A stretch of DNA of 64,000 bases from Yoonia maricola (GTDB taxonomy: Bacteria > Pseudomonadota > Alphaproteobacteria > Rhodobacterales > Rhodobacteraceae). The stretch is from the NCBI RefSeq assembly GCF_002797915.1, contig NZ_PGTY01000001.1, positions 1,178,001 through 1,242,000 on the forward strand. Reading direction: 5' to 3'. Position 1 is the stretch's first letter. Every line of letters starts with the position of its first letter. Shown here in pieces: positions 24,642 to 30,779 of the stretch. The translations under genes were made by a program, and so were the position numbers. Under the pieces are notes generated by a model, which did not search any database, had not been told where the DNA came from, and saw only the letters and a program-made list of their open reading frames with translations.

Positions 24642-25415
24642 ATGGAATGGGCGCGCATCAAAACGGCTGACGATCAAATCCTTACTGGTGTGATCGCAGA
24701 TGGCAAATTGCACCCTCGTACATCGCTTGGCTCTGACGAAGTTGCCGGTGATCCGGTTGCGCTAGAGAGCAGCACGATGCTGTCACCCTGCGTGCCAGGC
24801 AAGTTCATCGGGCTGTGGAACAACTTCCATGCGGCGGCCGAACGTAACAAGCTCGACATCCCCGAACACCCCCTTTTCTTTCTTAAACCCCTGTCATCAC
24901 TGGCCGGACCGGGGGTGACAGTTACCCTTCCTGCCGACATCGGTCGGGTGATTTTTGAAGGCGAGTTGGGTGTCGTGATTGGGCGGACCTGCGCCAACAC
25001 GAGCGTAGAAGAGGCCGAGGATGCCATCCTTGGTTATACCTGCGTCAACGACATCACCGCCTTGGATATCCTTTTTGAGGATCCCTCTTTTCCGCAGTGG
25101 ACACGGGCCAAGGGTTTTGACGGGTTTGGCGTCATCGGCCCTGTCATTCAAACCGATGTTGACTGGCGCGATTTGACGGTGAAGGTCATGGTGGGCGGGC
25201 GCGAGCGGCAATCCTATCCAGCATCAGACATGATCAGGAACCCGGCTGAAATCGTTAGCCAACTGTCCGCCGACATGACGCTCGAAGCAGGTGATGTGAT
25301 CGCTTGCGGCACATCCATTGGTGCGCGGCCTATCAAGGCGGGGATGGAGGTCGTCGTTGTGATCGACGGGATTGGCGAACTGCCGGTCACCATTGCGGCG
25401 ACCGACACAGATTAG
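24642..25415 (+). CDS. fumarylacetoacetate hydrolase family protein
   Basis: A 257-residue FAH-fold enzyme. The metal site pattern is visible as FEGELGVVIGRTC and VNDITALDILFEDPSFPQWTRAKGFDGFGVIGPVI. The first 60 residues form the usual small N-terminal domain with PGKFIGLWNNFHAAAER. The family includes acylpyruvate hydrolases, oxaloacetate decarboxylases and isomerases of aromatic breakdown; the sequence alone does not choose. Convergent 4-nt overlap with folE2. Confidence 0.88.
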   Translation: MEWARIKTADDQILTGVIADGKLHPRTSLGSDEVAGDPVALESSTMLSPCVPGKFIGLWNNFHAAAERNKLDIPEHPLFFLKPLSSLAGPGVTVTLPADIGRVIFEGELGVVIGRTCANTSVEEAEDAILGYTCVNDITALDILFEDPSFPQWTRAKGFDGFGVIGPVIQTDVDWRDLTVKVMVGGRERQSYPASDMIRNPAEIVSQLSADMTLEAGDVIACGTSIGARPIKAGMEVVVVIDGIGELPVTIAATDTD

Positions 25416-26515
25416 CCAATATGGAAAAGCGACTGGAACAGGCGGGGATCAATGCTCTCTGCCGCGAAGGTCTCGCCTTCAGTCAGCACTGATACGGCAT
25501 CATGGCTGTGCAGGCTTTCCTGATGGCTGGCAATCACTCGGAAATCAGAGATGCGGGTGTCCATTTGTAGTTGCTCGGTAAACAAGCGGGCGGCGTCCTC
25601 TACAAAGATCGGGTTCGCCGCGTTCAACTCTGCAAACGCCTGCTCATCCTCACGCTTGACCATCACTTGCGTTTCGGTCGGCACCGCCGCGCGGGCGCGA
25701 TCAATCAGGTCTTCGAACCATAGCACCTCAGCGCCCTCTTCCAGCAGTACCGAGATGCGGGCCACCGAACGTTGCGAATGCGGTGTGGCAAGCTGGCCCC
25801 GGAATTGGCGGGCATGTTCGGACAATTCCAGTGAACAGGGGCATGTGGACGAATAGACGTAATCCAGATGCACGATCTTCTTGCGCACACCGGCACTTTC
25901 GACCAGTTCCAGCGCAATGTCATAATACTGATAGCCAGCCAGGCCCGAGCGCAGGCTGTCCACCTTCATCGGAAAGCTGAAGCGCATCTGAATGCGGGCG
26001 TCAAAGCTTTCCAGATCGGTCTTATAGGCATCCAGCGCCTGCTCAATCACCTCAAAGCTGAAGGTCTCTTCCGCATGTTTGTAAAATGTCCGCATGATGC
26101 GGGACATGTTGATGCCCTTCTTTTCCGCTTCAAGTGACACCGTACCAGTGACAGAGGTTTCAAGCGTCAGATCGCCATTGTCGCGGGTATGAAAGCGGAT
26201 CGGGAGGCGAAAGTTTGAGATACCCACGTGCTGAATTTGCTGCTTTGCACCGCGGATCAGGCTGGCCGGACCGTTCTGCAAATCAGGCATCGACGCTTTG
26301 TAAGCGTCATCGACTTCGAACTCTTCGGGGTATGCACGGGCCAAAGCGGGGTAGTTCGACACCTCTTGTCCGGGGATCAAACGCGAGACAAGCGGGTCAA
26401 GCGTTGCGACTTCCTCTGCTGTGACATCGCCAGCCCAGCGCCGCAGCAATGCAAGGGCTGCTTCGGCCTCTTCGCGGCTTGGTTCGCGATCCATATCAGG
26501 TGAGTGGATATTCAT
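25412..26515 (-). CDS. folE2: GTP cyclohydrolase FolE2 (type IB)
   Basis: A 367-residue enzyme that converts GTP to dihydroneopterin triphosphate for folate. The signature HVGISNFRLPIRF and the metal site region SSTCPCSLELSEHA, followed by TPHSQRSVARISV, identify FolE2. ATG 26515 has a strong G-rich ribosome site and gives the usual family length. An in-frame ATG at 26623 would add 36 coding-like residues; I cannot exclude it. Confidence 0.93.
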   Translation of the reverse strand: MNIHSPDMDREPSREEAEAALALLRRWAGDVTAEEVATLDPLVSRLIPGQEVSNYPALARAYPEEFEVDDAYKASMPDLQNGPASLIRGAKQQIQHVGISNFRLPIRFHTRDNGDLTLETSVTGTVSLEAEKKGINMSRIMRTFYKHAEETFSFEVIEQALDAYKTDLESFDARIQMRFSFPMKVDSLRSGLAGYQYYDIALELVESAGVRKKIVHLDYVYSSTCPCSLELSEHARQFRGQLATPHSQRSVARISVLLEEGAEVLWFEDLIDRARAAVPTETQVMVKREDEQAFAELNAANPIFVEDAARLFTEQLQMDTRISDFRVIASHQESLHSHDAVSVLTEGETFAAESIDPRLFQSLFHIG

Positions 26516-26689
26516 GTCAGGTCCCCCCATCAGTGCGTTAGACACCGCAACATGGGGCCGCGCATCGGAATTTCCAATGATTTCTTTATAGATACGCTGA
26601 AGTTCCGCACGCGGATCGTTCATTTCAGTTGGCCTTTCCGGGGCTAAACATACCAAAGTTAACCAATTTTCCGGCGCGCCGTCACCTCT

Positions 26690-27865
26690 TCAAATTTGCG
26701 CCATAGCGGCCCGAAGGTCTGACAGCAGATCATCCGCATCCTCAAGCCCCACGCTCAACCGCAGCAGGCCCGGTGTGATGCCCAATACCGCCTTGGTGTC
26801 ATCTGACAACCGCTGGTGTGTCGTCGTAGCCGGATGAGTTACAATGGACTTCGCATCGCCAAGGTTGTTTGAAATCGTCCAGATCTCCAACGCATTCAAC
26901 ACTTTGAACGCTGCGGCTTGCGAACCGGCATCAATCGCCAGCACCGTACCGCCTGCCTCCATCTGCACCTTGGTCAGAGCGCTTTGTGGATGGCTGGCCA
27001 GACCGGGATAAATCACTTCAGCCAATCGCCCGTCTGCCTCCAGCGCCTCGGCCAGATACTGTGCGCTCTCAGTCTGTGCGCGCACCCGCAAATCAATGGT
27101 TTCCAAACCTTTGAGCATCACCCATGCGGTGAACGGCGACATCGAACCACCGGTATGCTTCATGTAAGGTTCCACCGTGCCGCGGATAAACTCGCGCGTG
27201 CCAAGGATCACACCGCCCAGCGCGCGCCCTTGCCCGTCGATATGTTTGGTTGCGGAATAAATGACCACATCAGCACCTTGCGCAATCGCGTCTGAATAAA
27301 CCGGCGTGGCAAAGACATTATCTATGACCACAGTAGCATCAACAGCATGTGCCAGCTTGGATACTGCCACGATATCAATCACTTCCAGCGTCGGGTTCGA
27401 AATGCTTTCGAAGAAAACAACCTTCGTTTCAGGCCGGATCGCAGCCTGCCATGCGGCCAAATCAGTGCCATCCACAAAGGTCACTTCGACGCCATAGCGG
27501 GTTAGAATTTCCTCAAGGATATACAAACAAGACCCAAAGAGCGCACGCGCCGAAACCACATGATCGCCAGCACGCAACATCGACATCAACGCACCATTGA
27601 CAGCCGCCATGCCAGAGGCTGTCGCAAACCCATCCTCGGCCCCTTCCAGCGCGGCAATCCTGTCTTCGAACATCGCCACTGTGGGGTTGCCATAGCGGGC
27701 ATAGATGAACTCATCCTCGCCTGCCTTGATGAACCGCGCTTCCGCGTCCTCGGCGCTGTCATAGACAAAGCCTTGCGTCATATAGATGGCTTCGCTGACC
27801 TCATTATACTGGCTGCGTCTGGTGCCTGTGTGCACCGCTTTGGTACGTTTCTTCCACGTTTTCAT
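26690..27865 (-). CDS. metZ: O-succinylhomoserine sulfhydrylase
   Basis: A 391-residue PLP enzyme of the Cys/Met metabolism family. The PLP lysine is in SATKHIDGQGRALGG, with ASGMAAVNGALMSML and VVIDNVFATP as other hallmarks. It makes homocysteine from O-succinylhomoserine and sulfide. A SAM-II riboswitch and intrinsic terminator in the 5' leader support a methionine-biosynthesis role. Confidence 0.93.
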   Translation of the reverse strand: MKTWKKRTKAVHTGTRRSQYNEVSEAIYMTQGFVYDSAEDAEARFIKAGEDEFIYARYGNPTVAMFEDRIAALEGAEDGFATASGMAAVNGALMSMLRAGDHVVSARALFGSCLYILEEILTRYGVEVTFVDGTDLAAWQAAIRPETKVVFFESISNPTLEVIDIVAVSKLAHAVDATVVIDNVFATPVYSDAIAQGADVVIYSATKHIDGQGRALGGVILGTREFIRGTVEPYMKHTGGSMSPFTAWVMLKGLETIDLRVRAQTESAQYLAEALEADGRLAEVIYPGLASHPQSALTKVQMEAGGTVLAIDAGSQAAAFKVLNALEIWTISNNLGDAKSIVTHPATTTHQRLSDDTKAVLGITPGLLRLSVGLEDADDLLSDLRAAMAQI

Positions 27866-27920
27866 TGTCCGTCCTCGCGCCTCTGTTGCGCTTTCATTTC
27901 ATGCGCGTCCTTCGCGCAAT

Positions 27921-27953
27921 AAAAAACCCCGACACCGGGAAAAGGTATCGAGG
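27921..27953 (-). terminator. intrinsic terminator in the metZ leader
   Basis: Minus-strand stem of 10 bp (CCTCGATACC with GGTGTCGGGG, two or three G:U pairs) encloses a 7-nt loop and is followed by six Ts. It sits between the SAM-II aptamer and the metZ start, 56 nt before the ATG. Confidence 0.8.
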
Positions 27954-27968
27954 CATAAAAACCTGCAA

Positions 27969-28026
27969 CCCTCTTTAGCGGCATATTTAACGTGGCCCGC
28001 AATCCGGTAACAAATCGCCACAACCG
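27969..28026 (-). promoter_or_regulatory. SAM-II riboswitch (metA-type aptamer)
   Basis: On the minus strand the leader shows the SAM-II core in order: GTGGCGATTTG, a variable loop, TTGCGGGCCACGTTAAA, then GCCGCTAAAG. P1 is formed by GTGGC with GCCAC, and the GCTAAAG end can form the pseudoknot helix. SAM-II occurs mainly upstream of methionine genes in alphaproteobacteria; metZ follows here. High SAM should lower metZ expression. Confidence 0.87.
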
Positions 28027-28121
28027 GTTGCATACGCCCGCGCCGGGTCTGCGTCAAGCCGCCCTCGACTTGCCCTTTGGGGCGATCATGCGATGGTAAG
28101 CGTCAAGCGAAAGGATAATGC

Positions 28122-28829
28122 ATGACCCAACCCTTTGATCTTTACTTCTGGCCGACACCCAATGGCTGGAAGGCCTCTATCGCGCTCGAAGAAATGGAAC
28201 TGCCTTACACCTTGCATTTGATTGATATCGGCGCGGGTGATCAGTTTAAACCCGCGTTTCTCAAGATATCCCCCAACAACCGGATGCCGGCAATTGTTGA
28301 TCATGAAGGGCCAGATGGCACCCCAATCTCAATCTTTGAATCCGGGGCGATCCTGCAATATTTGGCACGCAAAACGGGTCAGTTTTACGGGACAACCGAA
28401 AGGGACCGGATCAGCGTGGATCAATGGTTGATGTGGCAAATGGGTGGCCTTGGGCCAATGGCAGGGCAAGCGCATCATTTCCTGAAATATGCCCCCGCGA
28501 TGGACCCGCCCAATGACCTGCCCTACGCCAAGGACCGCTATCGCAAGGAAACGGCGCGGCTATATGGGGTGTTGGATGGCCAACTGGCCAAGCATGAATT
28601 TGTAGCAGGCGATTTCTTTTCCATCGCAGATATGTCGATCTGGGGTTGGGCATCACTTTGGGAAGGGCAGCAGCAAACGTTGGATGACAAACCACATATG
28701 GCGCGATGGTTGGAAACGGTGGGGGCACGTCCCGGTGTGCAACGCGGACGGGCGGTCGCGGCAGAAAAGCGCGGTGACTTTCGCAAGGATGCGCAGGCGC
28801 AGAAAACGCTTTTTACTAAACCAGAGTAA
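28122..28829 (+). CDS. glutathione S-transferase family protein (Nu-class, YfcG/YghU-like)
   Basis: A 235-residue GST with thioredoxin-fold N-domain (LYFWPTPNGWKASIALEEMELPYTLHLIDI, then NRMPAIVDHEGPDGTPISIFESGAILQYLARK) and an all-helical C-domain (MWQMGGLGPMAGQAHHFLKYAP). These stretches are typical of YfcG/YghU, which act as disulfide-bond reductases with glutathione. AAGGATAATGC precedes the start. Monocistronic by appearance. Confidence 0.92.
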   Translation: MTQPFDLYFWPTPNGWKASIALEEMELPYTLHLIDIGAGDQFKPAFLKISPNNRMPAIVDHEGPDGTPISIFESGAILQYLARKTGQFYGTTERDRISVDQWLMWQMGGLGPMAGQAHHFLKYAPAMDPPNDLPYAKDRYRKETARLYGVLDGQLAKHEFVAGDFFSIADMSIWGWASLWEGQQQTLDDKPHMARWLETVGARPGVQRGRAVAAEKRGDFRKDAQAQKTLFTKPE

Positions 28830-28886
28830 CGAATTCTTAGGTATACCCGGGTAGCGTAGACCCGTTCAGTTAAATTGGTCCACGCT

Positions 28887-29213
28887 ATGCAGTTCCGTTC
28901 ACATCGCTATCAAACGCAATATCCGATCCAACTCTCGACGCCTGCTGGGCTTCAACAGTGCCGTATCACCGATATTAACAACACAGGTGCCCGCATTCTG
29001 GGCCATTGCACCCTGCGGCGCGGAGATAAGGTGAAATTCAAGGTACTGAACGACGAAATATCCGCAGTTGTCTGCTGGTGTTCTCAGGAGAGTGCAGGCA
29101 TCTTATTCCGGCCGCAGATTTCATCAAACCAAGTGGACATGCTACGCTACCGCAGAGACAGGGCACACAATCAGTTACGCGGATCGGTAGGGTTTGGCTA
29201 CGCCCAGATGTGA
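28887..29213 (+). CDS. PilZ-domain protein
   Basis: A 108-residue protein that is almost only a PilZ domain: basic HRYQTQYPIQLS, then QCRITDINNTGARILGHCTLRRGDKVKF and SAVVCWCSQESAGILFR. The classic c-di-GMP motif RxxxR is not cleanly present (only SHRYQTQ), though the (D/N)xSxxG-like part reads DINNTGA. It may not bind c-di-GMP. ATG 28887 is the first ATG of the domain; the ribosome site is weak. Confidence 0.75.
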   Translation: MQFRSHRYQTQYPIQLSTPAGLQQCRITDINNTGARILGHCTLRRGDKVKFKVLNDEISAVVCWCSQESAGILFRPQISSNQVDMLRYRRDRAHNQLRGSVGFGYAQM

Positions 29214-29226
29214 TTGGGTTGCTCGG

Positions 29227-29838
29227 CTATTCCTCTGACGCTTCCGGCCCTTCGATGAAATAGTCCTGCAAACGATAGATTTGCACCCAAAGGAACACCA
29301 TCAACACTGCCGGGAAGGCAAATGTCTCTAGCTTGACCCACAGATCGGTCGTCTGGGTACGCCAAATCACTTCATTCGCGATACCAAGTGCCGCAAACAT
29401 ATAACACAGGCGGCGGGTGAAGATCATCCAGCCCTCTTTTTCCATCGGCAGGAATTCTTCCATCACATATTGAAGATAACTTTGGCCACGCAACAGGCCA
29501 ATGCCCAACAGCCCTGCCATCACGCCATAAACGATTGTCGTCTTCATTTTGAAGAACCGCTCATCGTTGAAATAGGCGGTCAGACCACCAAAGAAGATGA
29601 CCATAAAGGCGGTAAAAACCTGCATCCGGCTCAGCTTGCCCGTCAGCACCCACAGGATGCCCATTGCGGCCAGCAAAATGGGAATAAAGATCAAGGCGGC
29701 CACAATAAAGCCGGTGTACTCCGTGCCAGCAATCGTAAAGCTTTCGTCCCGGATACGCAGGTAAATCAGGAAAAACGCAAGCGTCGGTCCCAATTCCAAG
29801 ACCTGTTTCACCACCGGATTAATCGCTTTTTCGGCCAT
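29227..29838 (-). CDS. yciB: inner membrane-spanning protein YciB / septation protein IspZ
   Basis: A 203-residue membrane protein with about five to six helices, including VLELGPTLAFFLIYLR, FFGGLTAYFNDERFFKMKTTIVYG and the WMIFTRRLCYMFAALGIANEVIWR segment typical of YciB/IspZ. It acts in the envelope, linked to septation. Last gene of a four-gene minus-strand operon led by ftsY. ATG 29838 lies 11 nt after the transporter stop. Confidence 0.92.
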   Translation of the reverse strand: MAEKAINPVVKQVLELGPTLAFFLIYLRIRDESFTIAGTEYTGFIVAALIFIPILLAAMGILWVLTGKLSRMQVFTAFMVIFFGGLTAYFNDERFFKMKTTIVYGVMAGLLGIGLLRGQSYLQYVMEEFLPMEKEGWMIFTRRLCYMFAALGIANEVIWRTQTTDLWVKLETFAFPAVLMVFLWVQIYRLQDYFIEGPEASEE

Positions 29839-29849
29839 AGATATCTCCC

Positions 29850-30779
29850 TCACCCACCCATTTCCACGATGACGGCACCAAGTGCAACCAAGCACATCAA
29901 AAACAGACGACGTGACCCAACTTTTTCACCCATGATGAACCAGCCAATCAAGGCCGCGAAAACGACCGAAGTCTCACGCAGCACCGCTGCCTCACCGACT
30001 TTGTCCAAACGGGTGGCCAACATCACGCCGCCGAAGCTGATCCAGGCAATCAGCGCACCCACAAACCCGCGCCAGACCAGCGGACCCAAGGCTGGCTGTA
30101 TAGCAAGCCGTTTGTAACGCCATGTCGCAAGCAACGGGAAATCAATCGCAGTCACGAAAAAGAACCATGCCAAAAAGGTAAAAGGATCAGGCGTTTGCCG
30201 GATACCATAAGCATCATAGGTGGTGTAGATCGCAACAAGGCAGCCACCAATCAGCGCCCACAAAAGCCCTAGTTTCAGCGTATGTGGGTCGATCAACTCT
30301 TCCGCGATATTGCGCACGGCCAGCAACAGGATACCGCCTGATAAACAGGCTACCCCTACCCACTGCACGGCCGTAAAATGTTCGCCAAAAAACAGCGATG
30401 CAGCAATGACAGTAACCAAAGGCCCCGTGCCGCGCACCACCGGATATACAACCGTATATGCCGCGCGCTCATAGGCCAGCGCCATAGTCACCTTATAGGC
30501 AAAATGCACAATGATCGCGCCAACAAGGATCAGGGCTGTTGTCACATTCGGCCATGGCACCACAAAAAGCGCAACGGGCGCGGATAGTACACAAAGCCAG
30601 CCATCAATCGCCCCACGCGTCAGCCAAGGGTCATAGCGCCCTTTCTGCAGCGCGCCGAAAATAGCGTGGGCCAAGGCTGAAACCAAAGCAAGGATCGTGG
30701 CCAGCTGGGCGCCTGCGGGCGTGCCTGCGATCGCCACCAACCATGCGCCCAATTCATTCACATACGCCCCGGTTTCCAC
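29850..30779 (-). CDS. EamA/DMT-superfamily transporter
   Basis: A 309-residue membrane protein with ten predicted helices in two EamA repeats (e.g. AHAIFGALQKGRYDPW in the first, ALIGGCLVAIYTTYDAYGIR and VFAALIGWFIMGEKVG in the second). Substrate unknown; the family exports metabolites and drugs. It lies between the periplasmic-protein gene (22-nt overlap) and yciB in the ftsY operon, an arrangement I associate with Roseobacters. Confidence 0.88.
   Translation of the reverse strand: METGAYVNELGAWLVAIAGTPAGAQLATILALVSALAHAIFGALQKGRYDPWLTRGAIDGWLCVLSAPVALFVVPWPNVTTALILVGAIIVHFAYKVTMALAYERAAYTVVYPVVRGTGPLVTVIAASLFFGEHFTAVQWVGVACLSGGILLLAVRNIAEELIDPHTLKLGLLWALIGGCLVAIYTTYDAYGIRQTPDPFTFLAWFFFVTAIDFPLLATWRYKRLAIQPALGPLVWRGFVGALIAWISFGGVMLATRLDKVGEAAVLRETSVVFAALIGWFIMGEKVGSRRLFLMCLVALGAVIVEMGG

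Follow-up and report, generated by a model that had tools for sequence, protein, structure and literature searches.

The window, a stretch of 64,000 nt of the Yoonia maricola genome, carries metZ on its reverse strand, preceded by a leader in which a SAM-II aptamer, an intrinsic terminator and a candidate antiterminator follow one another or overlap (Table 1). The metZ product passes the TIGR01325 profile (543.5 bits, cut-off 510.05), which places a methionine-pathway gene downstream of the aptamer and bears out the preliminary description, where metZ had been named as the controlled gene. Behind metZ lies a FolE2 GTP cyclohydrolase homologue (25412-26656, reverse strand; 295.2 bits, cut-off 215). 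Its profile spans residues 112-380 of the 402 searched, so that a long N-terminal stretch of the listed frame falls outside it. A divergent gene (28122-28829, forward strand) resembles glutathione-dependent disulfide-bond oxidoreductases, with a score below the family cut-off.

Table 1 Features of metZ and its leader, in window coordinates
Feature	Position	Strand	Basis
Promoter candidate: TTGACG (28057-28052), 17 nt spacer, TATGCA (28034-28029)	28029..28057	-	Sequence
SAM-II (SAM_alpha) aptamer match	28031-27954	-	RF00521
P1 stem, UGUGGC with GCCACG	28022-28017 with 27996-27991	-	RF00521 alignment
P2 5' strand, around CC	28007-28006	-	Inferred by eye from other leaders
SAM-II core GCUAAA	27979-27974	-	
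P2 3' strand with SD-like GAGG	27973-27970	-	Inferred by eye from other leaders
Antiterminator candidate	27941..27973	-	Duplex prediction, minimum-energy fold, genus covariation
Intrinsic terminator hairpin, 11 pairs including closing G-U, loop UUUUCCC	27954-27926	-	
Residual small hairpin UCCCG-GUGU-CGGGG, abutting the T tract	27927..27940	-	
Six-T tract of terminator	27926-27921	-	Sequence
metZ Shine-Dalgarno (SD) GAGGA, 6 nt before ATG	27872..27876	-	Sequence
metZ, O-succinylhomoserine sulfhydrylase, 391 aa	26690..27865	-	

The aptamer was recovered by covariance-model search (cmscan, Rfam) with a score of 52.3 bits against a gathering threshold of 36 (E 7.1e-9, model positions 1-79). This agrees with the SAM-II aptamer that the preliminary description had claimed for the metZ leader, and the position given there was right to within a few bases, the model match starting 5 nt upstream of 28026. 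Among the matches listed at E <= 0.001, the metZ leader is the only SAM-II site of the genome. Both the P1 stem and the conserved GCUAAA/UUGC core are present in the RF00521 alignment, the printed structure line of which shows P1 only; for P2, few clear pairs were visible by eye (CC with GG, and more only on shifting).

The hairpin that follows, GCCTCGATACC-TTTTCCC-GGTGTCGGGGT (27954-27926, reverse strand), is strong and runs into six T. Folded alone, the stretch 27957-27920 reaches -17.5 kcal/mol (z -4.4), a value matched by none of 200 shuffles, and the intrinsic terminator claimed earlier is thereby confirmed as a structure. Its claimed spacing also holds, the ten-pair stem beginning 16 nt after GAGG and the ATG at 27865 lying 55 nt past the T run.

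SAM-II matches were found in 55 of 56 genomes of the genus, the single exception being the least complete genome (72%), in 93 of the 120 family-sample genomes and in 90 of the 190 class-sample genomes. The genus set used 55 of the 56 listed matches, a weak second match in genome G004 being omitted. The family set, with one genome per genus, used 91 of 94 listed matches, omitting the window, a weak second match and a partial match. For the class set 65 of 123 listed matches were taken, mostly the best-scoring, from at most about two genomes per family and sometimes with several copies per genome; two leaders (L113 and L127) in which the core could not be located were then dropped, leaving 63. 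GCTAAA stood at the located core position in all 55 genus leaders. With one detection rule, a terminator was found after the core in all 55 genus leaders, 78 of the 91 family leaders and 52 of the 63 class leaders, against 13/55, 26/91 and 14/63 when the downstream stretches were shuffled (a background of 22-29%) and 3/55, 2/91 and 5/63 in reverse-complemented upstream stretches. All ten leaders scanned with Rfam, out of 80 named metZ loci, likewise held SAM-II. By computation this study shows that the aptamer match and the terminator are present and conserved, and a SAM-II aptamer with a terminator before metZ is a common arrangement, with nothing unusual about it in this lineage.

The promoter candidate abuts the aptamer, and transcription is therefore expected to start near the first bases of P1. 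A relaxed promoter-like pattern occurs just upstream of P1 in 54/55 genus, 87/91 family and 51/63 class leaders, compared with 2/54, 2/91 and 2/63 in a control stretch further upstream; a stricter sigma-70 consensus scan gave no promoter within 26000-30000. Pairing between GCAACC (28031-28026) and the GGUUGC that follows GAGG was considered by eye and dropped because GCAACC overlaps or directly trails the -10 candidate and is probably untranscribed or only partly transcribed.

The 13 family leaders with no detected terminator include L143, L149, L152, L164, L169 and L198, and by eye L082, L083 and L092 are also SAM-II leaders lacking one. In some of the terminator-less family leaders an SD and start codon stand not far 3' of the aptamer, and it is possible that the mode of control alternates between termination and translation before one and the same gene. 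In L191 the leader is enlarged between terminator and metZ, and by eye the added part looks like GCGCGTCAGGCGCGCATGA-like units nearly repeated in tandem. In the window a second short hairpin (27918-27902, reverse strand) separates the terminator from the metZ start codon; it recurs, partly by eye, in L003, L166, L195, L197 and further leaders; its stem varies (GCGC, GCCTG, GGCG, GGGC) and abuts the SD in several of them. Start codons were assigned in 111 of 133 leaders, some plainly falsely, and among those kept the mean z of this hairpin was -0.99 (47 genus leaders) and -0.89 (31 family leaders), which is a lead rather than a result.

The preliminary description had started from the premise that most SAM-II elements hide the ribosome site. 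The terminators trailing the genus, family and class leaders go against this, as does the literature, where terminators are said to accompany SAM-II more often than the other classes in alpha- and beta-Proteobacteria. Putative terminators have been described for many SAM-II representatives (PMC1273637), and 14 of the 15 Rhodobacterales genomes in one account are reported to carry SAM_alpha, which stands before metY in 26 of 30 genomes from two orders (PMC4239095). The metZ leader of Sinorhizobium meliloti has the same RF00521 aptamer, the same gene and a terminator between aptamer and ORF; OFF control by termination upon SAM binding is predicted there, and an RNA of ~100 nt, more plentiful in rich medium, appears on Northern blots (PMC9373788). 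In Gluconobacter oxydans the O-succinylhomoserine sulfhydrylase gene follows an aptamer of the same class, with 5'-UTR coverage 20-fold over that of the ORF; the RNA-seq suggests termination, and a terminator/antiterminator prediction is cited (PMC5756330). The likeness to both leaders is one of architecture, as given in their descriptions. A predicted terminator after SAM-II is also part of tandem SAM-II/SAM-V arrangements such as that of Candidatus Pelagibacter (PMC9481103, PMC11508383); unlike that tandem (PMC2704228), the window holds no SAM-V or other second riboswitch at gathering thresholds in the Rfam scan. The open-licence literature yielded no comparative treatment of SAM-II antiterminators, though one may well exist in print.

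No obvious antiterminator had been seen in the preliminary description, which is probably wrong, since GAGGGU together with the linker behind it can pair with the 5' arm and loop of the terminator. At -10.9 kcal/mol this is the best duplex between the stretch after GCUAAA and the terminator 5' arm plus loop. Its predicted outer helix joins GAGGGU (27973-27968) to ACCUUU (27946-27941) and its inner helix joins CAGGU (27965-27961) to GCCU (27954-27951) and G27949, with C27950 bulged and a two-by-two U-G/A-U internal loop between the helices. The same structure is the minimum-energy fold of the window leader without the 3' terminator arm and, in the leader taken to the end of the terminator stem, mean terminator pairing rises from 0.105 with GAGG free to 0.975 with GAGG barred. 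The residual hairpin is able to form alongside the antiterminator fold, so that termination may be leaky, and read-through incomplete, in the ligand-free state. Taken on its own, the window antiterminator is weak and within chance, as 331 and 392 of 2000 shuffles of either strand give an equally good duplex (17-20%) and 67 of 1000 shuffled linkers reach the predicted switch size of the window leader. It is a plausible structure, predicted to share GAGG with the P2 3' strand of the aptamer, and it becomes more credible through linker-arm covariation in the genus and through complementarity between P2 3' strand and terminator in family and class.

Within the genus, the base that precedes GG in the linker covaries with the third base of the arm motif CC[C/T]C, with A/U in 13 leaders, A/C in none, G/U in 5, G/C in 29 and other combinations in 8 of the 55 (Fisher 6e-8, uncorrected for the kinship of the leaders). 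On a metZ tree of 54 leaders, a rough one built by parsimony on 330 bases, the linker changed 14 times and the arm 12 times, both together on 7 of the 106 branches (hypergeometric p 8e-5). Of these shared branches six keep or create a complementary pair, five by swapping A-U and G-C and one, leading to L195, by an A made to pair with U at the next arm base; the remaining branch is non-complementary (linker G to C, arm C to U). This covariation supports the predicted linker-to-arm pairing. NAGG is fully paired with arm plus loop in 54/55 genus leaders against 59% of shuffles, and the extended frame in 43/55 against 34% (five bases) and 24/55 against 14% (six bases), with 30/55 against 27% for five bases one position later. 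The hexamer starting from GG reaches six of six pairs in 2/55 genus leaders against 26% of shuffles, which is below chance; the support in the genus requires a frame two bases earlier than GG, which was picked after the window duplex was known, and the four frame and length choices tried after this negative hexamer are all reported here.

In the family the GG hexamer is fully paired in 32/78 leaders against 12% of shuffles. NAGG is above chance there (50/78 against 40%), the other frames being at or below it (12/78 against 20%, 2/78 against 5% and 6/78 against 12%). Of 38 family leaders with AGGTCA behind the core, 32 have a terminator containing TG[AG]CC, compared with 6 of the 40 that lack AGGTCA (Fisher 8e-10). 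In the class set, where 51 of the 52 leaders with a terminator entered the hexamer and frame tests, the GG hexamer is fully paired in 33/51 against 20% of shuffles, and the other four frames are above chance as well (17, 11, 7 and 10 of 51 against 12%, 6%, 2% and 6%). By eye, the terminator arm in the class is often CC[T/C]GACC, which nearly repeats the CCGACC of the P2 5' strand. When a 3' hexamer was fitted to the P2 5' strand, it came out as GGTCGG in 33 of 52 class leaders; these hexamers score 13.27 against their matched terminators and 12.43 against permuted ones, with 5 of 5000 permutations as good, but only 12 of the 19 class leaders with an uncommon P2 pair more strongly with their own terminator than, on average, with the others.

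Own terminators were also favoured over permuted ones in a swap test (z -3.3 genus, -6.2 family, -3.4 class, the last from 50 leaders), with the limit that the leaders are related, so that these figures and the Fisher values above overstate independence, the class set being affected least. The advantage is small, since for the median leader 43% of foreign terminators in the genus, 32% in the family and 38% in the class pair at least as well. The duplexes are modestly better than those of shuffled sequences, with a mean z of -0.87 (55 genus leaders), -0.89 (78 family leaders) and -1.14 (50 class leaders).

Taken together with the architecture, we read the leader as a SAM-sensing transcriptional OFF switch before metZ, which we consider the best reading, as a prediction, at a probability of roughly three in four; the preliminary description had likewise judged premature termination the likely control. 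At low SAM the P2 pseudoknot would be open and the GAGGGU strand available, so that GAGGGU and the linker could capture the terminator 5' arm and loop as these emerge and the polymerase would continue into metZ. At high SAM the aptamer would close P2 and occupy the GAGG strand, the outer helix of the antiterminator would be lost, and the terminator would form and release an RNA of ~100 nt. That SAM is bound, that GAGG is the contested strand and that termination takes place are inferences. The best reading is thus of a predicted lineage-specific expression platform on a known kind of OFF switch.

Equilibrium folding failed as a general proof of switching, the terminator being favoured in most leaders. 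With the aptamer bases free, mean terminator pairing is 0.81 in the genus, 0.82 in the family and 0.87 in the class. Blocking these bases raises it by more than 0.2 in 14/55 (25%), 15/78 (19%) and 4/52 (8%) leaders, against 8.5%, 9.6% and 9.6% with shuffled linkers, and the class set therefore shows no excess of predicted switching over shuffled linkers. The antiterminator loses more when the linker is blocked than when the aptamer bases are, in a calculation whose aptamer block fell short in some leaders, among them that of the window. Because most leaders favour the terminator at equilibrium, the switch could be general only as a kinetic one, in which the antiterminator forms ahead of the synthesis of the 3' arm. 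The same preference for the terminator with aptamer bases free fits the alternative of a constitutive or otherwise governed terminator, which would limit metZ and yield a stable riboswitch RNA while SAM acted mainly on RNA stability or not on the terminator. A precedent may be seen in S. meliloti metA, where a strong terminator stands behind SAM-II, the authors could predict no SAM-II-driven antiterminator, and growth conditions altered promoter activity and RNA stability (PMC9373788). However, the linker-arm covariation seen in the genus, and in family and class the complementarity of the P2 3' strand to arm and loop beyond shuffles, would be superfluous for a constitutive terminator, and we regard this alternative as improbable.

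Translational control, in which SAM would hide the SD-like GAGG of the aptamer, corresponds to direct occlusion, the class to which a recent review assigns SAM-II by way of a metX example (PMC10907184). The window leader shares with metX the aptamer class and an SD-like P2 3' strand containing GAGG, but differs in that this strand is distant from the start codon and a terminator comes after it. In favour of this reading, a 20-codon frame that crosses the terminator (27956-27894, reverse strand) starts from an ATG 13 nt after GAGG, and in L188-L190 an ATG 12 nt behind GAGG opens a frame of at least 168 codons. Judged by spacing, GAGG nevertheless lies ~104 nt from the metZ ATG, which has its own GAGGA, and an ATG stands close behind the aptamer in just 8 of 55 genus leaders; for this distance and this rarity, control of translation through the aptamer SD was rejected as very improbable. 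The 168-codon frame of L188-L190 is possibly in frame with metZ, which brings to mind S. meliloti metA, a gene described as having two starts. That the hairpin is a chance, functionless resemblance to a terminator has in its favour that the 4 kb around it hold terminator-like sites in near the expected number (5 against a shuffle mean of 3.9, hence no excess). It is scarcely credible as far as sequence can tell, since the hairpin combines its z of -4.4 with a counterpart in every genus leader.

The OFF-switch reading may extend to the Alphaproteobacteria at large, a tentative proposal about which our doubts slightly outweigh our confidence. The SD-like P2 3' strand would serve as the seed of the antiterminator and the terminator 5' arm would copy the P2 5' strand, so that the P2 3' strand would choose between two look-alike partners, with the parts rebuilt from lineage to lineage. 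Many families would have arms resembling CCUGACC, many Rhodobacteraceae genera would have loops resembling CUUGACC, and the genus of the window would have a hybrid of linker and GAGG.

The window leader and those of its relatives suggest that termination is the common SAM-II mode in this lineage, in contrast to the direct-occlusion picture of the review. The exact bases of a testable antiterminator are now named for an element whose annotation is otherwise routine. If the proposal for the Alphaproteobacteria is true, a single switching rule would be built from lineage-specific parts.
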